Below are positions 3,399-39,298 of a stretch of 42,356 nt of DNA, piece after piece. Location: the IMG/VR virus record IMGVR_UViG_3300044798_000128, positions 1 to 42,356 of that record. One strand, written 5' to 3'. Positions within the stretch are counted from its first letter, which is position 1; the number at the start of each line of letters is the position of its first letter. A program made the position numbers and the translations under genes. The stretch is from a virus. The notes below the pieces were generated by a model, which saw only the letters and a list, made by a program, of their open reading frames with translations, was not told where the DNA came from and did no database searches.

Positions 3399-3821
3399 AT
3401 GAACCATACAATAAACAGGGACTTTGGGCTATTCGGTGAGGAATACGTGATGCACCTGTTACACGGTCTGGGGATACATTGCGAGCACAGTCACCAGGCA
3501 GATTTGAAAACGGGGCAGGTCACAATCGAAGTGAAAGCCAGCCATTTGACTCAGTGCGACCGCCACCATGGCAAGCGTTTCCAGTTTTGCCTATGGCGCG
3601 AGGGTCACACCGACTTTGACGCTGATTTTCTGGTCTGCCTGTGCTGCCCCGACGGGCAGCTTGTCACCGACACTTACATCATTCCCCGCGCACATGTTGA
3701 CCATAAGCACAAATTGATAATTTGGCCGGGAGACTACCAGGGGAAATGGTTGCCCTTTCACGATGCGTGGAACCTCATCATTGCGCATTCTGGTGTAGTG
3801 TGGAGGGGGAATGATGACTAG
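3399..3821 (+). CDS. PD-(D/E)XK nuclease-like protein
   Basis: 140 residues. The N-terminus FGLFGEEYVMHLLHGLG, then AD at 34-35 and IEVKAS at 43-48, gives the E14 / D35 / E44-x-K46 pattern of PD-(D/E)XK nucleases, as in restriction enzymes and resolvase-like proteins. The start follows the preceding stop directly and the next gene starts immediately after its own stop. It may process phage DNA or cut foreign DNA; the substrate cannot be told. The fold is inferred from motif order. Confidence 0.65.
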   Translation: MNHTINRDFGLFGEEYVMHLLHGLGIHCEHSHQADLKTGQVTIEVKASHLTQCDRHHGKRFQFCLWREGHTDFDADFLVCLCCPDGQLVTDTYIIPRAHVDHKHKLIIWPGDYQGKWLPFHDAWNLIIAHSGVVWRGNDD

Positions 3822-4145
3822 ATGAACAATGCAACCTTGGCAATGTTTCTCGTAGGGGCTTTCATCACCGGGGTTGGGATTGCCGGCTTGTATCTCGTGC
3901 TCCGACGTCCTACGCTCAATCTCAAAGTTATCCGCAAGGTTGAGACGATGGATGTGACGCACATTGTCCCCTTGATTATCTTGTTTGAGCATAGCGCCCC
4001 CGGCAGTGATAAGAGCCGACTGTACCTGGCAAGGTTGGCCGATTTGATTGGGAAAAACCCGGAGGATGCGGTGGCTCGTCTGGATGCGATCTCGGTGTTT
4101 CGGCGCAAGAAACTTTGGGGCGGAATGCTCAAAAAAGTGCTTTAG
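3822..4145 (+). CDS. Small membrane protein
   Basis: 107 residues. Residues 5-27 (TLAMFLVGAFITGVGIAGLY) form one hydrophobic helix, followed by a basic cytoplasmic-looking tail ending FRRKKLWGGMLKKVL. Its ATG abuts the stop of the nuclease gene. Function not recognised. Confidence 0.65.
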   Translation: MNNATLAMFLVGAFITGVGIAGLYLVLRRPTLNLKVIRKVETMDVTHIVPLIILFEHSAPGSDKSRLYLARLADLIGKNPEDAVARLDAISVFRRKKLWGGMLKKVL

Positions 4146-4229: not shown

Positions 4230-5030
4230 ATGAATGACAAAGTAGACAATTTGACGCCTAATCAGATCTGGCAGGCTGCGCTCGGCGATTTGCAGTTGCA
4301 GTTGACTGGGGCCACGTTCGACCAGTGGCTCCTCCGGACCCGCTGTGTTTCGTGCAACGGCGATGGATTTGTGATCGCCGTGCATAACGAGTCTGCCCGA
4401 GAATGGATTGAGGCGCGCCTGGCGGGGATGATCCAGCGGACGCTGGCGGCCAGGGTCGGGCAGCCGGTGCAGATAAGATTCATTACTGATACACCCAAGG
4501 CGAGCTCAGTCGAGCCGGAGCCTGTGAATCCAGCCCTTCAGATCGAGCCACGGGGATTTATTCTACCGGACTATGATCCCAAAGAGGCAGGTTGGTTCGA
4601 TGTGAGCGAATACGCCTCGACCTTTTGGTCCCCCCTGCTGGGGCGTATCGCCTGGCGAGTATGGGAGATTGTTCGTGAGACGGATCATCGCCCAAAAGAA
4701 AGAAAGACTGAATGGACGCCGGCCAAGCGCTGGACAGCACCGCGCCTGGCCGAGTTGGTGCCCTGCGGTCGCCAGGCATTGACTGGCAGGATGCGTAACG
4801 ATAATCGGGAAATCGGGGCATTCGGCCGGCTGGAGGAGATGGAAGTTGCCCAGGTGCAGCGCCAGGGCATTGATCCGCACATCATCTATACGCTGAGCGC
4901 GCGGACCAGGTTGGCGCTCTTGATGCCGGCCCAGGTGCAGCAACTCTCGGAGAATATGCGGGTGAAACATGATCACTGGCTCGAAGAACATGGATTCGAT
5001 CCCAAGGCATGGTTTCTGTCTAGTACATAA
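4230..5030 (+). CDS. Replication-initiator-like protein with DnaA domain I
   Basis: 266 residues. Residues 12-85 (IWQAALGDLQLQLTGATFDQ through VQIRFITDT) match the N-terminal domain I of DnaA, which recruits helicase and other partners. The AAA+ and DNA-binding domains of DnaA are absent; instead the C-terminal half has a helical segment with WTAPRLAELVPCGRQALTGR that could be a helix-turn-helix. I infer a phage replication or loader protein that copies the host DnaA recruiting surface. A copy of the 21-bp box lies inside the gene (4472-4492). The palindrome-rich region 5840-6190 is near and could be its target. Confidence 0.75.
   Translation: MNDKVDNLTPNQIWQAALGDLQLQLTGATFDQWLLRTRCVSCNGDGFVIAVHNESAREWIEARLAGMIQRTLAARVGQPVQIRFITDTPKASSVEPEPVNPALQIEPRGFILPDYDPKEAGWFDVSEYASTFWSPLLGRIAWRVWEIVRETDHRPKERKTEWTPAKRWTAPRLAELVPCGRQALTGRMRNDNREIGAFGRLEEMEVAQVQRQGIDPHIIYTLSARTRLALLMPAQVQQLSENMRVKHDHWLEEHGFDPKAWFLSST
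4472..4492 (+). repeat. Dispersed 21-bp box, copy 2 (inside a gene)
   Basis: Left block GATAAG, spacer ATTC, right block ATTACTGATAC. It lies fully inside the DnaA-domain-I gene, where it encodes IRFITDT at the end of the domain. It is the only exact copy lying wholly inside a gene. Confidence 0.8.
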
Positions 5031-6256: not shown

Positions 6257-6541
6257 ATGCTAACTCCAACCGGAAATCCTACTCACGATTCTATTCCCGA
6301 CACTGCCACGGCGATCCAGTTGGCCGTTCTCAATGAACGATTGCTGCCACTGATCGAATTGACCAAACAACACGAGATTACTTTGCGCGGCGAAAAAGGC
6401 ACTGGCGGCCTGATCGCAGACGTCAATGATCTCAAGCGCGGAATGGATACGATCCGCAGATTGTCCTGGTTGGCCATTGGATCGGGGATTGGAACGTTGG
6501 TGATGTGGTTTGCTACCTACATCAAATTGCAAGTGCATTGA
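6257..6541 (+). CDS. Coiled-coil, single-span membrane protein (XhlA- or holin-like)
   Basis: 94 residues from ATG 6257 (AAGGGGG upstream); an upstream start at 6194 is rejected because it would run through the terminator. A helical segment (LNERLLPLIELTKQHEITLR ... VNDLKRGMDTIRRLSWL) leads into a transmembrane helix near the C-terminus (LAIGSGIGTLVMWFATYIKL). Haemolysin XhlA-type phage proteins have this order and work with holins in lysis. It would be the first gene read after the terminator. Lysis role is inference. Confidence 0.6.
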   Translation: MLTPTGNPTHDSIPDTATAIQLAVLNERLLPLIELTKQHEITLRGEKGTGGLIADVNDLKRGMDTIRRLSWLAIGSGIGTLVMWFATYIKLQVH

Positions 6542-6551
6542 AAGGGGATCC

Positions 6552-6797
6552 ATGGGTGATTTGATCGAAGGGATTATCACCGGCCTCGTCGAGGATGAGA
6601 GTTGGCAGGGCAATCTCACGGATGGCGAGCGCACCCAATTGATCGAAGCGGTCCAGCGGCGATTGGAAAAAGCGCTCAAGACTGAGCGTGCTCAACTTGT
6701 GGGTTGCCTGCGAACGATCAATCAATCCATGTCGTGGCTTCAAGGCTCCCAGCGCGCCGACGTGTTCAATTCGTTGATCACCGGATTCGGATTGTGA
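6552..6797 (+). CDS. Small hypothetical protein
   Basis: 81 residues from ATG 6552 with AAAGGGG upstream. Mostly helical and charged (LTDGERTQLIEAVQRRLEKA...). No known domain recognised. Lies 10 bases after the membrane protein gene, likely the same transcript. Confidence 0.6.
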   Translation: MGDLIEGIITGLVEDESWQGNLTDGERTQLIEAVQRRLEKALKTERAQLVGCLRTINQSMSWLQGSQRADVFNSLITGFGL

Positions 6798-6806
6798 AGC
6801 CGGACA

Positions 6807-6827
6807 GATAATCTCCATTATCCCTAC
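6807..6827 (+). repeat. Possible degenerate 21-bp box
   Basis: Left block GATAAT and spacer CTCC fit; the right block ATTATCCCTAC keeps 7 of 11 bases. It also forms GATAAT / ATTATC, a perfect dyad. It ends three bases before the ATG at 6831, the usual place for these boxes. Confidence 0.35.
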
Positions 6828-6830
6828 AAG

Positions 6831-7433
6831 ATGAAAACCAAGAGCCAACCGGATCAGATCATTAACAAATGTATACCGCTGGCGACGCTGAGGCCACATC
6901 CGCGCAATTATAATCAGCATGATGAGGCGCAGATCGGCGACTTGCGCTTGAGTTTGCGGACATTCGGGCAGGTGCGCTCAATCGTGGTGCAGGCTCTGAC
7001 GCGGGGCCGCAATAGTTTTTTGACGGTGGCCGGGCACGGGCTGGTTGCGGCAGCACGGCTGGAGGGGTTCACCGAATTGCGTGCCGACGTGATCCCGGCC
7101 AAGTGGGATGAGACGCTGGTGCTGGCTTACCTGGCGGCGGACAATGAATTGGCAAAACGCGCAAATCCCGACGAGGCCCAACTTGCCAAACTGGCAGAGG
7201 ACGTGGAGCGCGAGCGCGGCGCGGGCTTGGCGGCGCTGGCGGCGGGTTCCGAGGAGCGGCTGAAGGAATTGCGGGCAAGTCTGGCTCAAGCTGAGACGGA
7301 TGGCAAGGTGAGTAACGATGAAATTCCAGAACAATGGATGATCGTCATCGAATGTTCATCCGAACAGCATCAAAAGCAGTTGTTGGAGCAATTCATGTCG
7401 GAAGGATTGAAATGCAGAGCGTTGATCAGTTGA
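6831..7433 (+). CDS. ParB/Srx-domain protein (second ParB-like)
   Basis: 200 residues. The N-terminal half (PLATLRPHPRNYNQHDEAQI ... SIVVQ ... TVAGHGLVAAARLEG ... LRADVIPAKWDE) is a ParB/sulfiredoxin-type domain with the G-H-G variant of its motif. It lacks the ParB DNA-binding helix-turn-helix; the C-terminal tail (EQWMIVIECSSEQHQKQLLE) is a short mixed domain. In phages such domains sit next to DNA methylases and other modification genes; some cut or hydrolyse NTPs. The following ABC-GNAT gene overlaps it by 22 bases, so both are probably made together. Substrate unknown. Confidence 0.75.
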   Translation: MKTKSQPDQIINKCIPLATLRPHPRNYNQHDEAQIGDLRLSLRTFGQVRSIVVQALTRGRNSFLTVAGHGLVAAARLEGFTELRADVIPAKWDETLVLAYLAADNELAKRANPDEAQLAKLAEDVERERGAGLAALAAGSEERLKELRASLAQAETDGKVSNDEIPEQWMIVIECSSEQHQKQLLEQFMSEGLKCRALIS

Positions 7434-8548
7434 AAGCAACCATCGTCAGGGATTCGCCCATCATCCAGACAGCGCGCGTGATGCAGATTTCCGGCATCTT
7501 TGACGTGCCTCCCTGCGAGCACAGCGCGGAGCGATGGGAAGTTTCCTTGCCACTAGATTTTGAGTGGAACATCGGCCTGATCATCGGTCCGTCTGGCTGT
7601 GGCAAGACGACCATCGCGCGTGAATTATTTGGCACATCGGTTTGTTCCGGCTTTGAATGGCCGGATGACAAATCGTTATTGGATGGTTTTCCGCCCGAGA
7701 TGGGCATCAAGGACATCACAGAGATTTTATCGAGCGTCGGTTTTTCATCTCCTCCACTGTGGCTGCGGCCTTTCCGAGTTCTATCTACCGGTCAGCAGAT
7801 GCGCGTTAATGTGGCACGATTGCTGTCAGAGAACAACGACCTGGCCGTGATGGATGAATTCACTTCGGTGGTAGACAGAACGGTCGCTCAAATCGGAAGT
7901 GCCGCGATTGCCAAGACGGTCCGGCGCAGAGGTCAAAAGTTCATCGCGGTGACATGTCATTACGATGTTGAGGAATGGCTGCAGCCGGATTGGGTATACC
8001 AACCGCATACCAACGAGTTCTTGCGGAGGTGTCTTCAATGTCGCCCAAAGATCGAACTTGAGGTTAGCCGCGTGCATCACTCGTGTTGGGGCTTGTTCCA
8101 ACCGTATCATTATTTGAACCAGTCCTTTAACAAAAGTGCCCGATGCTTTGTGGCATTTTTGAAAGGCGAGCCGGTGGCTTTGCAAGCAGTCTTGCCCTCA
8201 CCACATCCGATTGCCAAGAATGTGTACCGGGGACATCGCGCGGTTTGCTTGCCAGATTATCAGGGTGTCGGGATTGGCAATGCGCTGATCACTCATGTGG
8301 CGAGTGCCTATCATGGTATCGGACGGCGCACTTTGATCACGACCGCATCGCCCACACTGATAATCCGTTGGTCGCGTGATGCAAAGTGGCAATGTATTCG
8401 AAAACCGCATCTTGCAGCGTCGAGAGGAAAAACGACGGGAAAGGCAATGCGCGCCTGGATACCTGCCATCAATCGTCTGACGAGCACTTGGGAATATATC
8501 GGCCCTGCGATGGATGAGCAGACAGCAAGAAACTTGATTTATGAATAG
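7412..8548 (+). CDS. ABC-type ATPase fused to GNAT acyltransferase
   Basis: 378 residues. ATPase part: Walker A GPSGCGKTT (59-67), signature LSTGQQ (124-129), Walker B LAVMDE (144-149), H-loop VTCHYD (H184). No membrane segments, so not a transporter. GNAT part: from HHSCWGLFQPYHYLNQ to the end, with the acyl-CoA loop DYQGVGIGNAL (about 285). Start 7412 is chosen for GGAAGG six bases upstream. Mu Mom, a DNA base-modifying enzyme, has a GNAT fold, and this fusion beside a ParB/Srx protein fits a DNA-modification role; that is inference. The chemical group and target are unknown. Confidence 0.8.
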   Translation: MQSVDQLKATIVRDSPIIQTARVMQISGIFDVPPCEHSAERWEVSLPLDFEWNIGLIIGPSGCGKTTIARELFGTSVCSGFEWPDDKSLLDGFPPEMGIKDITEILSSVGFSSPPLWLRPFRVLSTGQQMRVNVARLLSENNDLAVMDEFTSVVDRTVAQIGSAAIAKTVRRRGQKFIAVTCHYDVEEWLQPDWVYQPHTNEFLRRCLQCRPKIELEVSRVHHSCWGLFQPYHYLNQSFNKSARCFVAFLKGEPVALQAVLPSPHPIAKNVYRGHRAVCLPDYQGVGIGNALITHVASAYHGIGRRTLITTASPTLIIRWSRDAKWQCIRKPHLAASRGKTTGKAMRAWIPAINRLTSTWEYIGPAMDEQTARNLIYE

Positions 8549-8563
8549 AGGACGTGAAAGGAG

Positions 8564-8980
8564 CTAATCTGTAGCAAGATGAGCCATTGGGAAATTTGAC
8601 ACCCAAGCAGATTGAATGCCTCTGGGAGTTGCTGATGCAGGAAATTCAATTGGCGTCACATCAATCAAACCAATGATGACAGCGTATCGCGATTTCGATT
8701 TGTGCGTGAAATATGCACTGGTTTCAGCGCCGCTGAAGGGCTGAACAAGCTCGGCGAGGGATTGAATGTCAGTCGGGGTAAGCGATTCAAATTTGAGCAC
8801 ATACTCGACACGCGCGCGCAGTTTGATCTCGCCACCGGTTTCCTTGAACAAAATAAAATCGCCCGGCTGAGTATTCCAGGCGAGCGGGCGATTGACTGAC
8901 AATCGGCACTCGACTGTTTTCATCCCGCTCTTGATGCGCGCGAGCGGCTCTGACTGAATGAAGGCGACGTGTGTTTTCAT
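8564..8980 (-). CDS. ASCH-domain (PUA-like) protein
   Basis: 138 residues starting MKTHVAFIQSEPLARIKSGM, then KTVECRLSVNRP, QPGDFILFKETGGEIKLRAR and a closing beta region: the order of an ASCH domain (signature around G-x-K-x-x-E-x-R). ASCH and related PUA-like folds bind RNA or modified bases. It is transcribed against its neighbours and ends 15 bases from the ABC-GNAT gene. The start is set by the near-consensus promoter at 8988-9015, whose transcript would begin at or just before the ATG, so it may be leaderless. Possibly a lysogenic moron or a reader of a DNA mark (inference). Confidence 0.75.
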   Translation of the reverse strand: MKTHVAFIQSEPLARIKSGMKTVECRLSVNRPLAWNTQPGDFILFKETGGEIKLRARVEYVLKFESLTPTDIQSLAELVQPFSGAETSAYFTHKSKSRYAVIIGLIDVTPIEFPASATPRGIQSAWVSNFPMAHLATD

Positions 8981-8987
8981 ATCTCTA

Positions 8988-9015
8988 ATTCTACGGAGAA
9001 TGGTGGCGTTGTCAA
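8988..9015 (-). promoter_or_regulatory. Sigma70 promoter for the ASCH gene
   Basis: On the minus strand: TTGACA (9015-9010), 16-base spacer, TAGAAT (8993-8988). The -35 is perfect and the -10 has five of six. The -10 is covered by a near-palindrome ATTCTACGGAGAAT (8988-9001), a possible operator. The expected start of transcription is about at the ATG (8980). Confidence 0.7.
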
Positions 9016-9081
9016 GAGAAACGTTTGTGCGGAGAATTATGTCACTCCAACTAACTTTGCTGGATTTTGCGATTGAGCGGA

Positions 9082-9102
9082 AATAATGGCGATTACTGAT
9101 AC
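9082..9102 (+). repeat. Dispersed 21-bp box, copy 3 (covers the terS start codon)
   Basis: Left block AATAAT, spacer GGCG, right block ATTACTGATAC. The start codon of terS (9086-9088) is inside the box, so a protein bound to the DNA, or structure in the RNA, would sit on the translation start. Confidence 0.85.
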
Positions 9103-34324: not shown

Positions 34325-34516
34325 TTAGACCCTACAGAAGGCTTTCTCGAACGCTTGTCTCGCCTGGCTAGGCTCTATCAGGATGTGCAAGCGGCGCTCG
34401 ACAGTGCGCCATGGCCGGCTGCGCTGGGCATTGAGACATATGAGAATGCTGAACCAATCCTCACGCGGAATCTGAAGCAGCGCCAGATCAAAGTGTAGTG
34501 TCTGCAACACCCGCAT
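34325..34516 (-). CDS. Small hypothetical protein, uncertain
   Basis: 63 residues from ATG 34516 (MRVLQTLHFDLALLQIPRED...); an earlier in-frame ATG is at 34552. It overlaps the 3' end of the repressor gene by about 29 bases and a GGGGATC precedes it. No known domain. It fills the gap between repressor and lipoprotein genes. Confidence 0.4.
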   Translation of the reverse strand: MRVLQTLHFDLALLQIPREDWFSILICLNAQRSRPWRTVERRLHILIEPSQARQAFEKAFCRV

Positions 34517-34862
34517 GATAGGATCCCCGCCGATCTGCCACATAGTTTTCAAGCATCCTCAGCCAATTCTGTCGTTCCTCGGTAGTGAGATAGGCAAACG
34601 CCTCATTCATCTCGCGGAGGTTGGGCGTGTCCGTCGGTGGGGGGGGCCGAAGCACACCCATCTGTTCGAGAATCTCGATGCGCGGAATCGAGAGTGCATC
34701 GGCGATCTTGATGGCCACATCCAGGCCTAATCCCCGATTCCCATTGATGATGTTTGAGATTGTTACTTGATTTATATTAGCTCGACGGGCTAACTCGCTT
34801 TGAGTCCAGCCTTTTCGTTCCAGATGTTCAAGCAGCCAACGAGATAAATCTTCCATAGTCAT
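34488..34862 (-). CDS. XRE-family repressor
   Basis: 124 residues from ATG 34862 (GGAGG upstream); the ATG at 34895 lacks a ribosome site. Helix-turn-helix at about 18-60 (GWTQSELARRANINQVTISN IINGNRG), then IADALSIPRIEILEQMG and a helical C-terminal tail, without a RecA-cleavage peptidase domain. Divergent from the early genes starting at 35016, the place of a CI-like immunity repressor. It probably binds the palindromes in 34928-34982. Confidence 0.8.
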   Translation of the reverse strand: MTMEDLSRWLLEHLERKGWTQSELARRANINQVTISNIINGNRGLGLDVAIKIADALSIPRIEILEQMGVLRPPPPTDTPNLREMNEAFAYLTTEERQNWLRMLENYVADRRGSYHAGVADTTL

Positions 34863-34927
34863 AATGATAGCCTCCAAGCTGTAGTTTTGGGTCATTTGAT
34901 TCGATTTCTCAAGACTAAAAAAGGATA

Positions 34928-37184: not shown

Positions 37185-37263
37185 GCCACGCTGGACACGC
37201 TTGGATTGGTGGGCGCTGGTGTTTGGAGCATTGGCGCTGGCTGCCGCACGACTGTTGAGATAG
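37177..37263 (+). CDS. Tiny membrane peptide 3
   Basis: 28 residues (MSEPRWTRLDWWALVFGALA LAAARLLR), amphipathic to hydrophobic helix with basic ends. It overlaps peptide 2 by eight bases and is followed eight bases later by the recombinase start. Confidence 0.45.
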   Translation: MSEPRWTRLDWWALVFGALALAAARLLR

Positions 37264-37271
37264 GAGGTTCC

Positions 37272-38396
37272 ATGCCAGTGGTGATCGTTGACACACCCCC
37301 GACGACGAAATTGCTACCTGCCTGGATTGTCGCCCCGGAGGCGCCTCTACAACCCAGCATCGGGATTGACGACCGCGACGACGAGGCGGTCAAGGATCAG
37401 GTGTGGCCGATTGCGTATGAGCAATGGCTTGCCTCGTGCAGTAAAACCAACAGCCAGAACACGCTGGGCGGCTACAAACAGGCGATCAAATCATTCTTCA
37501 AGTACACGGGCGGGATTCGGCCCTGGCGTGTCATGTCCAGCCATGTGATCGGCTGGCAGAACGAGATGCGCTCGCGGGGTCTGAAGGATTCGACGATCAA
37601 TCTGCGCCTGTCTGGATTGTCCTCGTTGTTCAATTTCCTGGGGACTTTGTTCCCCTATCCCGATCCACGCACGCGGAAGGAGGCCTTCCTCGTTTCGCGC
37701 AACCCGGTGGATTCGGCAAAACGAGCCAAGGTTGATCCCTATGCCAACGCGGGGGCGCTCAGCGTGGAGGAAACGACGGCATTACTGCGCAAAATTGACC
37801 GCAGCACCGTGATCGGCCTGCGTGACTTTGCATTGATTCATACGCTCATCTACACCGGCTGCCGCATACATGAGATTCTCCGTCTCAGATGGGGCGACAT
37901 TACGGAGAATAATGGGCATTTTTTTTATGCCTGGCAGGGCAAGGGTGGCAAGGGTGGCAAGAGCGATGATATTGGCGCTGGCTTCAAATTCGAGCTGCCT
38001 GGCGTATCATACCTGGCAATCCATGGATATTTGAAAGCGGCCGGCAAGCTCGAGATGGCGCCGGACCAGTATATCTTTGTCGCGCACAGTGATGCGGCCC
38101 TGCACCTGCCCAATGTGAAATCGGTGGGCCAGAACAAGCCATTGAGTACTGCCTCTGCCGGCAGACTCTTGCGGCGCTGGGCCGCCAAGGCGGGCCTCGA
38201 TCCCAAGCGGATCCATCCACATTTATTGCGTCATACCGCTGGTGGCTTTATAGCCATGAAATCGGGTGATAACTTGAAGGCGGTACAGGAATTTCTCCAT
38301 CATAGCAACCCAGCGACAACGCAGATTTATCTGTCCCATCTAAAGAATAATCTAAACCCATACTGGATGGCGATCGAGCAGATGCTAGGGCTATAG
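37272..38396 (+). CDS. Second tyrosine recombinase
   Basis: 374 residues from ATG 37272 (TAGGAGG upstream). SAM-like N-terminal domain at about 45-125 and a catalytic domain with R198 (TGCRIHEIL), H317-x2-R320 (HLLRHTAGG), H344 and Y353 (QIYLSHL): complete. It differs clearly from the integrase at 32152. It may resolve multimers of a circular form, serve another attachment site, or control gene inversion. No partner site is identified. Confidence 0.88.
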   Translation: MPVVIVDTPPTTKLLPAWIVAPEAPLQPSIGIDDRDDEAVKDQVWPIAYEQWLASCSKTNSQNTLGGYKQAIKSFFKYTGGIRPWRVMSSHVIGWQNEMRSRGLKDSTINLRLSGLSSLFNFLGTLFPYPDPRTRKEAFLVSRNPVDSAKRAKVDPYANAGALSVEETTALLRKIDRSTVIGLRDFALIHTLIYTGCRIHEILRLRWGDITENNGHFFYAWQGKGGKGGKSDDIGAGFKFELPGVSYLAIHGYLKAAGKLEMAPDQYIFVAHSDAALHLPNVKSVGQNKPLSTASAGRLLRRWAAKAGLDPKRIHPHLLRHTAGGFIAMKSGDNLKAVQEFLHHSNPATTQIYLSHLKNNLNPYWMAIEQMLGL

Positions 38397-38398
38397 CG

Positions 38399-39298
38399 AT
38401 GAAAGCACCTTTTCCGTATTTTGGTGGGAAGCACAAGATAGTCGACTTGATCTGGGAACGTTTCGGCCACGTGGCCAATTACGTGGAACCGTTTTTCGGC
38501 TCGGGCGCCGTGCTGTTGGGACGCCCGCGCCTCTACGGCACAGAGACGGTCAACGACAAGGATTGCTACCTGGCGAATTTCTGGCGGGCGATTCAGGCTG
38601 AGCCAGGCCGAGTAGCTGAGTGGGCCGACTGGCCGGTGAATGAGGCCGACCTCCAGGCGCGGCACGTCTGGCTATTGAACCAGGTCGAGTTCCGTCAGCG
38701 CGTGTTGGATAATCCACATTACTATGACTGCCAGGTAGCCGGCTGGTGGGTGTGGGGGCTTTGTCAATGGATCGGCGGGGCCTGGTGCGATCAGAGCATG
38801 CCGATGGACGATGAGCACCGGCCACCGCGCCGGATGCCCCGTCCCTTTACGCCGGGCGTATGGATTCGAGGCTACGCTGATGTCTATGATTATTTTGAGG
38901 CGCTGGCGGAGCGATTGCGCAGCGTGCGGGTGTTGTGTGGCGAGTGGCATCGCGTGCTGGGGCCCTCGCAAACGACGGCGCTGGGATTGACGGGTGTCCT
39001 GCTCGATCCTCCCTACAGCATCCGGCGCTGTGCGGAGGCCGTCTACGGCCAGGAGGATCGGGATGTGGCGCACCAGGTCCGCGAATGGGCGATCACGAAT
39101 GGACTGAATCGCCTGCTGCGGATCGCCCTGTGCGGATATGAGGGCGAACACCAGATGCCGGCGGATTGGACGTCGGTGATGTGGGAGCACTCGATGGGAT
39201 ACAGCGAGCATGGCGGGGGCCAGGGACGCAAACGTGAGGTGATTTGGTTCAGCCCGTATTGCCTGCAAGCGATCCAGATCAGCGCGTTCGGCGAATAG
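38399..39298 (+). CDS. dam: DNA adenine N6-methyltransferase, D12 class
   Basis: 299 residues. PYFGGK (6-11) is the AdoMet site, EPFFGSG (30-36) and DPPY (203-206) the catalytic motif of N6-adenine methylases such as Dam. An inserted Trp-rich part (GWWVWGLCQWIGGAWCDQSM) is longer than in Dam. Starts three bases after the recombinase stop. It would mark phage DNA against host restriction; no cognate nuclease is adjacent, so it is probably an orphan. Confidence 0.9.
   Translation: MKAPFPYFGGKHKIVDLIWERFGHVANYVEPFFGSGAVLLGRPRLYGTETVNDKDCYLANFWRAIQAEPGRVAEWADWPVNEADLQARHVWLLNQVEFRQRVLDNPHYYDCQVAGWWVWGLCQWIGGAWCDQSMPMDDEHRPPRRMPRPFTPGVWIRGYADVYDYFEALAERLRSVRVLCGEWHRVLGPSQTTALGLTGVLLDPPYSIRRCAEAVYGQEDRDVAHQVREWAITNGLNRLLRIALCGYEGEHQMPADWTSVMWEHSMGYSEHGGGQGRKREVIWFSPYCLQAIQISAFGE

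Follow-up and report, generated by a model that had tools for sequence, protein, structure and literature searches.

A putative mom-equivalent cassette in a temperate phage, built around an ABC ATPase fused to a GNAT acyltransferase

What purpose is served by a short block of phage genes, placed just before the terminase, in which a ParB-like protein and an ATPase fused to an acyltransferase are faced by a PUA-like protein? The question is raised by the 42,356 bp IMG/VR virus record IMGVR_UViG_3300044798_000128, the whole of which is here termed the window and which is marked as that of a temperate phage by a Cro/CI-type repressor gene (34488-34895, minus strand) together with one for an integrase (37206-38396). 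An earlier note on this DNA had described two overlapping plus-strand genes, encoding a ParB/Srx-domain protein and a soluble ABC ATPase fused to a GNAT acyltransferase (ABC-GNAT), with an ASCH gene facing them 15 bases away. This layout holds: the first two genes, at 6831-7433 and 7412-8548, overlap by 22 nucleotides (nt), and the ASCH stop codon lies at 8564 against the ABC-GNAT stop at 8548. The block is an optional cassette that probably serves a temperate tailed phage for DNA modification, as an equivalent of mom: it would perform an ATP-gated acylation and thereby place an anti-restriction mark. In other words, the window holds a fresh member, with ASCH, of a class that had been predicted before, and the survey of relatives presented here makes that class a well-supported equivalent of mom.

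The ABC-GNAT protein has 378 amino acids. Its frame is open from 7334, but the family alignment does not support this longer form and the better start is the ATG at 7412, which fits both that alignment and a GGAAGG site. The protein matches PHROG 11143 (E 1e-101) and, in Pfam, ABC_tran (E 3e-9) and Acetyltransf_1 (PF00583, 25.3 bits, over the cut-off of 20.7). The ATPase domain (7412-8038, plus strand) contains a Walker A motif (GPSGCGKT), signature (LSTGQ), Walker B (DEFTSVVDR) and H-loop, within which the family residues K65, S125/G127, D148/E149 and H183, respectively, are kept; no transmembrane partner for it is present in the block. The GNAT domain (8048-8545, plus strand), delimited by PF00583 and alignments, carries an HY(L) motif after its first helix (H233-Y234) and the coenzyme A (CoA)-site motif R-x-V-x-x-P-x-x-Q-G-x-G (R276, Q284-G285-x-G287). 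The Walker A, signature, Walker B, D-loop, H-loop, GNAT HY and CoA-site motifs are all conserved across 53 relatives. Judged from its sequence, this is an intact gene with the catalytic motifs of an ABC ATPase directly followed by a GNAT domain. The AlphaFold2 model has a mean predicted local distance difference test (pLDDT) of 91 and a predicted template modelling score of 0.85; VIA-align places residues 1-206 with ABC transporter ATPases (Z 15.6), and a Foldseek search returns ABC ATPases, with TmcA (2zpa) at rank 16 (E 6e-8), aligned over 428 columns and both domains.

Relatives of the protein are widespread. Those found by tblastn are in 57 phage records, with Lactococcus P335 at one end of the range and Aeromonas phages of the T4-like type at the other, and there are at least 595 relatives in IMG/VR and 425 in GTDB species genomes; in Firmicute phages the ABC and GNAT parts are separate adjacent genes. 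The survey set comprised 155 loci, non-redundant at 85%, of which 137 had enough upstream sequence.

Among these relatives, the genomic setting repeatedly leads to mom. Mom of phage Mu produces an N6-modified adenine which protects against restriction. According to the Mu record, Com is the translational regulator of Mom. In phage Komp_PAO1_1 (L013) there is an unannotated com gene (3647-3971; Com PF10122, E 9e-21) overlapping a gene for the ParB tail alone (see below), and in the corresponding clade of IMG/VR loci, the com clade, com stands upstream of ABC-GNAT in 69 of 80 cases (40 of 46 clusters at 85% identity). These loci, which have no ParB-N domain, are found far from the terminase, where Mu-like genomes end and tail genes surround them. 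The com leader before ABC-GNAT is 71-87% DNA-identical to the leader before mom in other Mu-like phages; for one pair of loci, L275 with ABC-GNAT and L219 with mom, the com region is 86.7% identical over 278 nt. Exchange of the two enzymes is also seen at a single site in Porphyromonas gingivalis phages 011a and 015a, the left flanks of which share 88.8% DNA identity across 2.9 kb and the right ones 81% across 91 nt: one of the two carries a ParB-tail gene, ABC-GNAT and a formyltransferase at this locus, and the other carries mom (PF25680, 4e-56). In L271 (4974-6772) the genes for ABC-GNAT and a Mom homologue (PF25680, 5e-45) share 4 nt within one operon, and Aeromonas phage PX29 (L012) likewise has Mom and ABC-GNAT within one genome; two marks may thus coexist, or act on different bases. 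In Microbacterium phages, as in L244 and L249, mom has a ParB gene for a neighbour. Occupancy of a mom locus, or exchange with mom, is documented for these relatives rather than for the window phage itself.

The question of the acyl donor is addressed by other neighbours. Directly after ABC-GNAT in Gordonia phage Jace, L069, L126 and L140 come genes for PanD, an aspartate 1-decarboxylase (PF02261, 2e-33), and then for a CoA-transferase III (PF02515, above cut-off). The product of PanD is beta-alanine, and family III enzymes move CoA between acids. The simplest reading of these assignments is that the pair would supply beta-alanyl-CoA as donor, the alternative being that PanD feeds CoA synthesis. 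One or both genes stand beside ABC-GNAT in L006 (5197-6308), L069 (1796-2826), L126 and L140, and also in L120, L122 and L127, as a possible phage-encoded supply of aminoacyl-CoA. A formyltransferase (PF00551) follows ABC-GNAT in 57 of the 80 com-clade loci, and is also found in the P. gingivalis phages and in Gordonia phage Sisko. Since no donor gene was found in the window, its enzyme would use a host CoA thioester.

The neighbourhood survey for which the earlier note had called finds the ParB/Srx partner to be near-universal, with a ParB gene directly upstream of ABC-GNAT on the same strand in 129 of 137 loci, and the two fused into one open reading frame (ORF) in L115 and L167. The window protein (plus strand, 200 amino acids) consists of a ParB-like N-terminal domain and a conserved C-terminal tail. 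It matches PHROGs 620 (E 2e-16) and 723 (E 1e-11), both ParB-like, and 498 (E 5e-18), and a profile of it with 11 relatives, searched against the PDB, finds Noc/Spo0J ParB structures at 3e-14 and sulfiredoxin at 5e-7; the ParB N-terminal fold is assigned from these matches, Pfam ParB_N on the single window sequence being below threshold (E 0.03). The nucleotide-contact arginine of the G-x-x-R motif of CTP-binding ParB proteins is leucine in the window (GHGL) and variable among relatives, which makes the use of CTP doubtful. Two ParB/Srx genes lie upstream of the ABC(-GNAT) gene in L019, L021, L065, L073, L083 and L122; in L019 and L021, the Stenotrophomonas and Rhizobium large-phage versions, the match is to the ABC half only.

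Within the ParB protein, conservation is greatest in the final ~40 residues. This tail (EQWMIVIECSSEQHQKQLLEQFMSEGLKCRALIS; 7329-7430, plus strand), kept in 129 of 137 loci, is proposed as a docking element for ABC-GNAT. In Komp_PAO1_1 and P. gingivalis phage011a it forms a short gene of its own, without ParB-N, which overlaps ABC-GNAT. A hidden Markov model built without any stand-alone copies finds such a tail in 74 of the 80 com-clade loci (E<=0.01), directly upstream of ABC-GNAT and nowhere else, and a scan of mom loci found no tail domain beside mom. We infer that the tail binds ABC-GNAT and that the ParB domain contributes a DNA contact. In phage011a (L011) ORF 3897-4025, labelled 'acr candidate', is the stand-alone tail, such that the anti-CRISPR label is probably wrong.

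The block as a whole is an optional cassette. It extends approximately from 6798 to 9085, between a gene at 6510-6797 and TerS at 9086. The nearest relatives by terminase, L187 and L188 (TerL 76-78% and portal 79% identical), have homologues of gene 6510-6797 and of TerS and lack the ParB/ABC-GNAT/ASCH block. In L188 no gene separates the two homologues, and in L187 a peptidase M23 gene (PF01551, 1e-19) takes the place of the block.

Taken together, the mom swaps, the com-ABC-GNAT operon and the donor genes beside homologues support DNA base modification, to which may be added the ParB genes beside mom, the Foldseek match to TmcA, a prior prediction for phage pT24 (see below) and the optional status of the block. 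The central idea of the earlier note, a cassette that modifies bases of DNA and includes a GNAT step driven by ATP, is thus well supported. Mechanistically, the ABC-ATPase-GNAT, probably as an ABC dimer, would spend ATP on opening or bending the phage DNA, and the GNAT domain would then move an acyl group from a CoA thioester onto the exocyclic amine of a base. ParB/Srx would act as an obligate partner, the C-terminal tail docking on ABC-GNAT while the ParB-like domain touches the DNA, and the resulting acyl mark would shield phage DNA from host restriction. The ASCH-like protein would be a separately transcribed accessory, most likely binding the marked base or nucleoside as reader, eraser or regulator. 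More tentatively, and with the balance somewhat on the other side, the family may constitute a new acylated-base class, in which some members build their own donor (beta-alanine made from aspartate by PanD and loaded onto CoA, or a formylated variant) and ASCH proteins serve as readers or erasers.

Several observations weigh against such a cassette. The GNAT and Mom profiles have no detectable homology beyond an HY[S/L] motif (hhalign P 0.04-0.05 and a probability of about 1%, in comparisons that used 5 or 76 Mom sequences), which is not significant, and direct homology of the two was accordingly rejected; Pfam Mom (PF25680) gives no match to the window protein either. The equivalence therefore rests on context: what is argued is that the two enzymes would work alike, rather than that ABC-GNAT is itself a Mom. 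Identity between the enzymes of the com clade and of the window is only about 34%, so that a different substrate is possible. The window version has no PanD, CoA-transferase or formyltransferase, and a pattern scan found no com near its ABC-GNAT gene. Neither ParB nor tail is present in 7 of 137 loci. ASCH is absent from 105 of 130 eligible ABC-GNAT loci and from every one of the 80 mom and 80 com-clade loci, and the model of the window ASCH protein (pLDDT 54) is too poor for a fold search.

The ASCH-like (PUA-like) protein itself has 138 amino acids and is encoded on the minus strand, convergent with ABC-GNAT (8564-8980, the start being best placed at 8980). Its direct matches are weak: it lies under the Pfam PF04266 cut-off (16.0 bits against 21.2, E 0.02), matches PH0355 in the PDB (2z0t) at E 0.014, and matches cyanobacterial plasmid proteins at E 3e-3 to 9e-2, two of the four being annotated as ASCH; close homologues were found neither in phages nor in IMG/VR. 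The core motif GxKxxExR is present (K21, E24, R26). The assignment is nevertheless credible because ASCH genes recur at the same position beside ABC-GNAT: they adjoin it in 25 of 130 loci, mostly convergent on the minus strand and drawn from several subfamilies, and these neighbours, unlike the window copy, exceed the PF04266 cut-off, one subfamily matching human ASC-1 structures at E 3e-25. In the convergent slot the motif shows a 27-fold enrichment (19 of 1220 ORFs, against 6 of 10592 elsewhere in the same loci), and the presence of ASCH on the tree requires at least 12 changes, gains and losses not being separated on this unrooted FastTree tree, from which a repeated, independent association emerges. 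In phage MismyG the order is ParB-ABC-GNAT-ASCH-TerL, all on one strand. As a part of the cassette, then, ASCH is supported as a recurrent convergent neighbour, but 80% of loci are without it, and the reader role given to it in the earlier note is putative. With regard to function, the E. coli ASCH protein YqfB hydrolyses N4-acetylcytidine (PMC6972931). The nucleophile of its Lys21-Thr24-Glu74 triad, Thr24, is replaced by Glu in the window and neighbour ASCH proteins, which makes a binding role more likely than hydrolysis, and a YqfB-like deacylase was ranked behind a reader.

The ASCH gene had also been credited with a strong promoter of its own, and as a consensus match this is borne out: a candidate sigma-70 promoter, TTGACA-16-TAGAAT (8988-9015, minus strand), agrees at 11 of 12 positions; among 4226 stretches of the window, each of a hundred nt, 8 reach this score. 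With the -10 hexamer ending 8 nt ahead of the start codon, a leaderless or very short-leader mRNA is predicted, as is seen for some genes of prophage maintenance. In the 15-nt gap between the convergent genes, RNA structure is not better than in shuffles.

It is rather unlikely that the ASCH gene is an unrelated neighbour which landed at a tolerant site; its minority presence, the several unrelated subfamilies and the weak window match would fit, but the enrichment in the convergent slot and the repeated gains or losses would not. A wider challenge comes from TmcA, the closest full-architecture structural match, which together with the common occurrence of ASCH/PUA-like domains in RNA biology, and with the activity of YqfB, could mean that the complex acylates host or phage RNA (tRNA or rRNA), with translation steering or escape from tRNA-cleaving defences as the outcome. 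This is improbable, however, in that DNA modification is indicated by the exchange with mom, both at a single locus and behind com, and the ParB-type partner has a DNA-binding fold.

The optional status and the convergent ASCH gene on its own promoter would fit a moron for host takeover, defence or superinfection exclusion, whose GNAT would acylate a host protein (cf. Rac, RNA polymerase) or be a toxin restrained by ASCH. PADLOC, moreover, reports a match to mad3 of MADS (5e-10), but this spans ABC-domain residues 135-186, is generic to ABC ATPases, and led to membership of MADS being rejected. With ASCH missing from 80% of loci, which would be intolerable for a toxin left without its antitoxin, and with com control and mom swaps unexplained, a moron of this kind is distinctly improbable. 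A role in DNA packaging or segregation, with the GNAT domain regulatory, is suggested by the position of ParB and the ABC ATPase beside TerS/TerL (TerL lies within 3.5 kb downstream in 65 of 116 loci) and by the cooperation of ParB and SMC-like ABC proteins in segregation. It is nonetheless highly improbable, given that the com clade sits among tail genes, away from the terminase and lacking ParB-N, that the active-site motifs of the GNAT domain are conserved to the same degree as the ATPase, and that the relatives of the window phage package without the cassette.

Elsewhere in the window there is, as the earlier note had said, a D12/Dam-type adenine methyltransferase (38399-39298; PF02086, E 2e-10). 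It lies 30 kb away from the block, directly after the integrase gene, and is treated as separate from the pathway. The glycosyltransferase-like gene of the same note did not materialise among 39 window ORFs scanned with Pfam, and a multi-step hypermodification that draws in these two enzymes is not supported. A gene at 4230-5030 encodes a protein with a DnaA N-terminal domain (PF11638, 1.5e-9), possibly a helicase loader or an initiator decoy, which is kept in L187 and L188, and a 449-amino-acid ORF at 93-1442 has a helix-turn-helix ParB match (HTH_ParB, PF17762, E 3.5e-5) at its extreme N-terminus.

The overall picture is that a brief earlier prediction, on a family with members in phages and prophages by the hundred, is now strongly supported by context and can be tested in phages that have been isolated. 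If the DNA-modifying reading is true, a class of ATP-coupled DNA acyltransferases, partnered by the ParB tail, would be added beside Mom, with an indication of the acyl donor (CoA thioesters, in a beta-alanine or a formyl branch) and with PUA-like proteins as candidates for recognition or removal of the mark. Anti-restriction would be better understood, and tools to write and read acylated DNA could follow.

The idea itself is not new. Iyer and Aravind predicted that DNA bases receive an acyl modification, itself uncharacterised, from a GNAT that is coupled to an ABC ATPase, and they named Tenacibaculum phage pT24 (PMC7824862, section 3.4.7); their text does not mention ParB, the tail, com, ASCH, PanD/CoA-transferase or mom swaps. 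The window ABC-GNAT matches pT24 once (8e-57, a single locus); the pT24 system belongs to the same protein family, with the same predicted function, and differs in having ABC and GNAT split into two ORFs where those of the window are fused. A literature search, from which subscription papers were largely absent, returned no experiment on ABC-GNAT acylation and no mention of com, the tail, PanD or swaps, and priority can therefore not be claimed. The primary paper behind the prediction is said to propose ASCH readers of modified bases.

Three other systems bear comparison. The ASCH proteins YqfB and human ASC-1 have the GxKxxExR core in common with the window protein, and with Glu in place of Thr24 hydrolysis of the YqfB type is not expected of the latter. 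TmcA/NAT10 couple a P-loop ATPase to a GNAT domain in ATP-dependent base acylation, which yields N4-acetylcytidine in RNA. TmcA thus resembles ABC-GNAT in having both activities in one chain, but has a RecD-type helicase core, an RNA substrate and another domain arrangement (root mean square deviation 13.7), whereas the window ATPase is of the ABC class, with an LSxGQ signature, and so lies outside this family. Mom of Mu has neither the ATPase domain nor the ParB tail, and no Com was found beside the window cassette; like ABC-GNAT, however, Mom is a GNAT enzyme with an HY motif after its first helix, and it is with mom that the relatives of ABC-GNAT share com, genome position and leader, and with mom that they swap.

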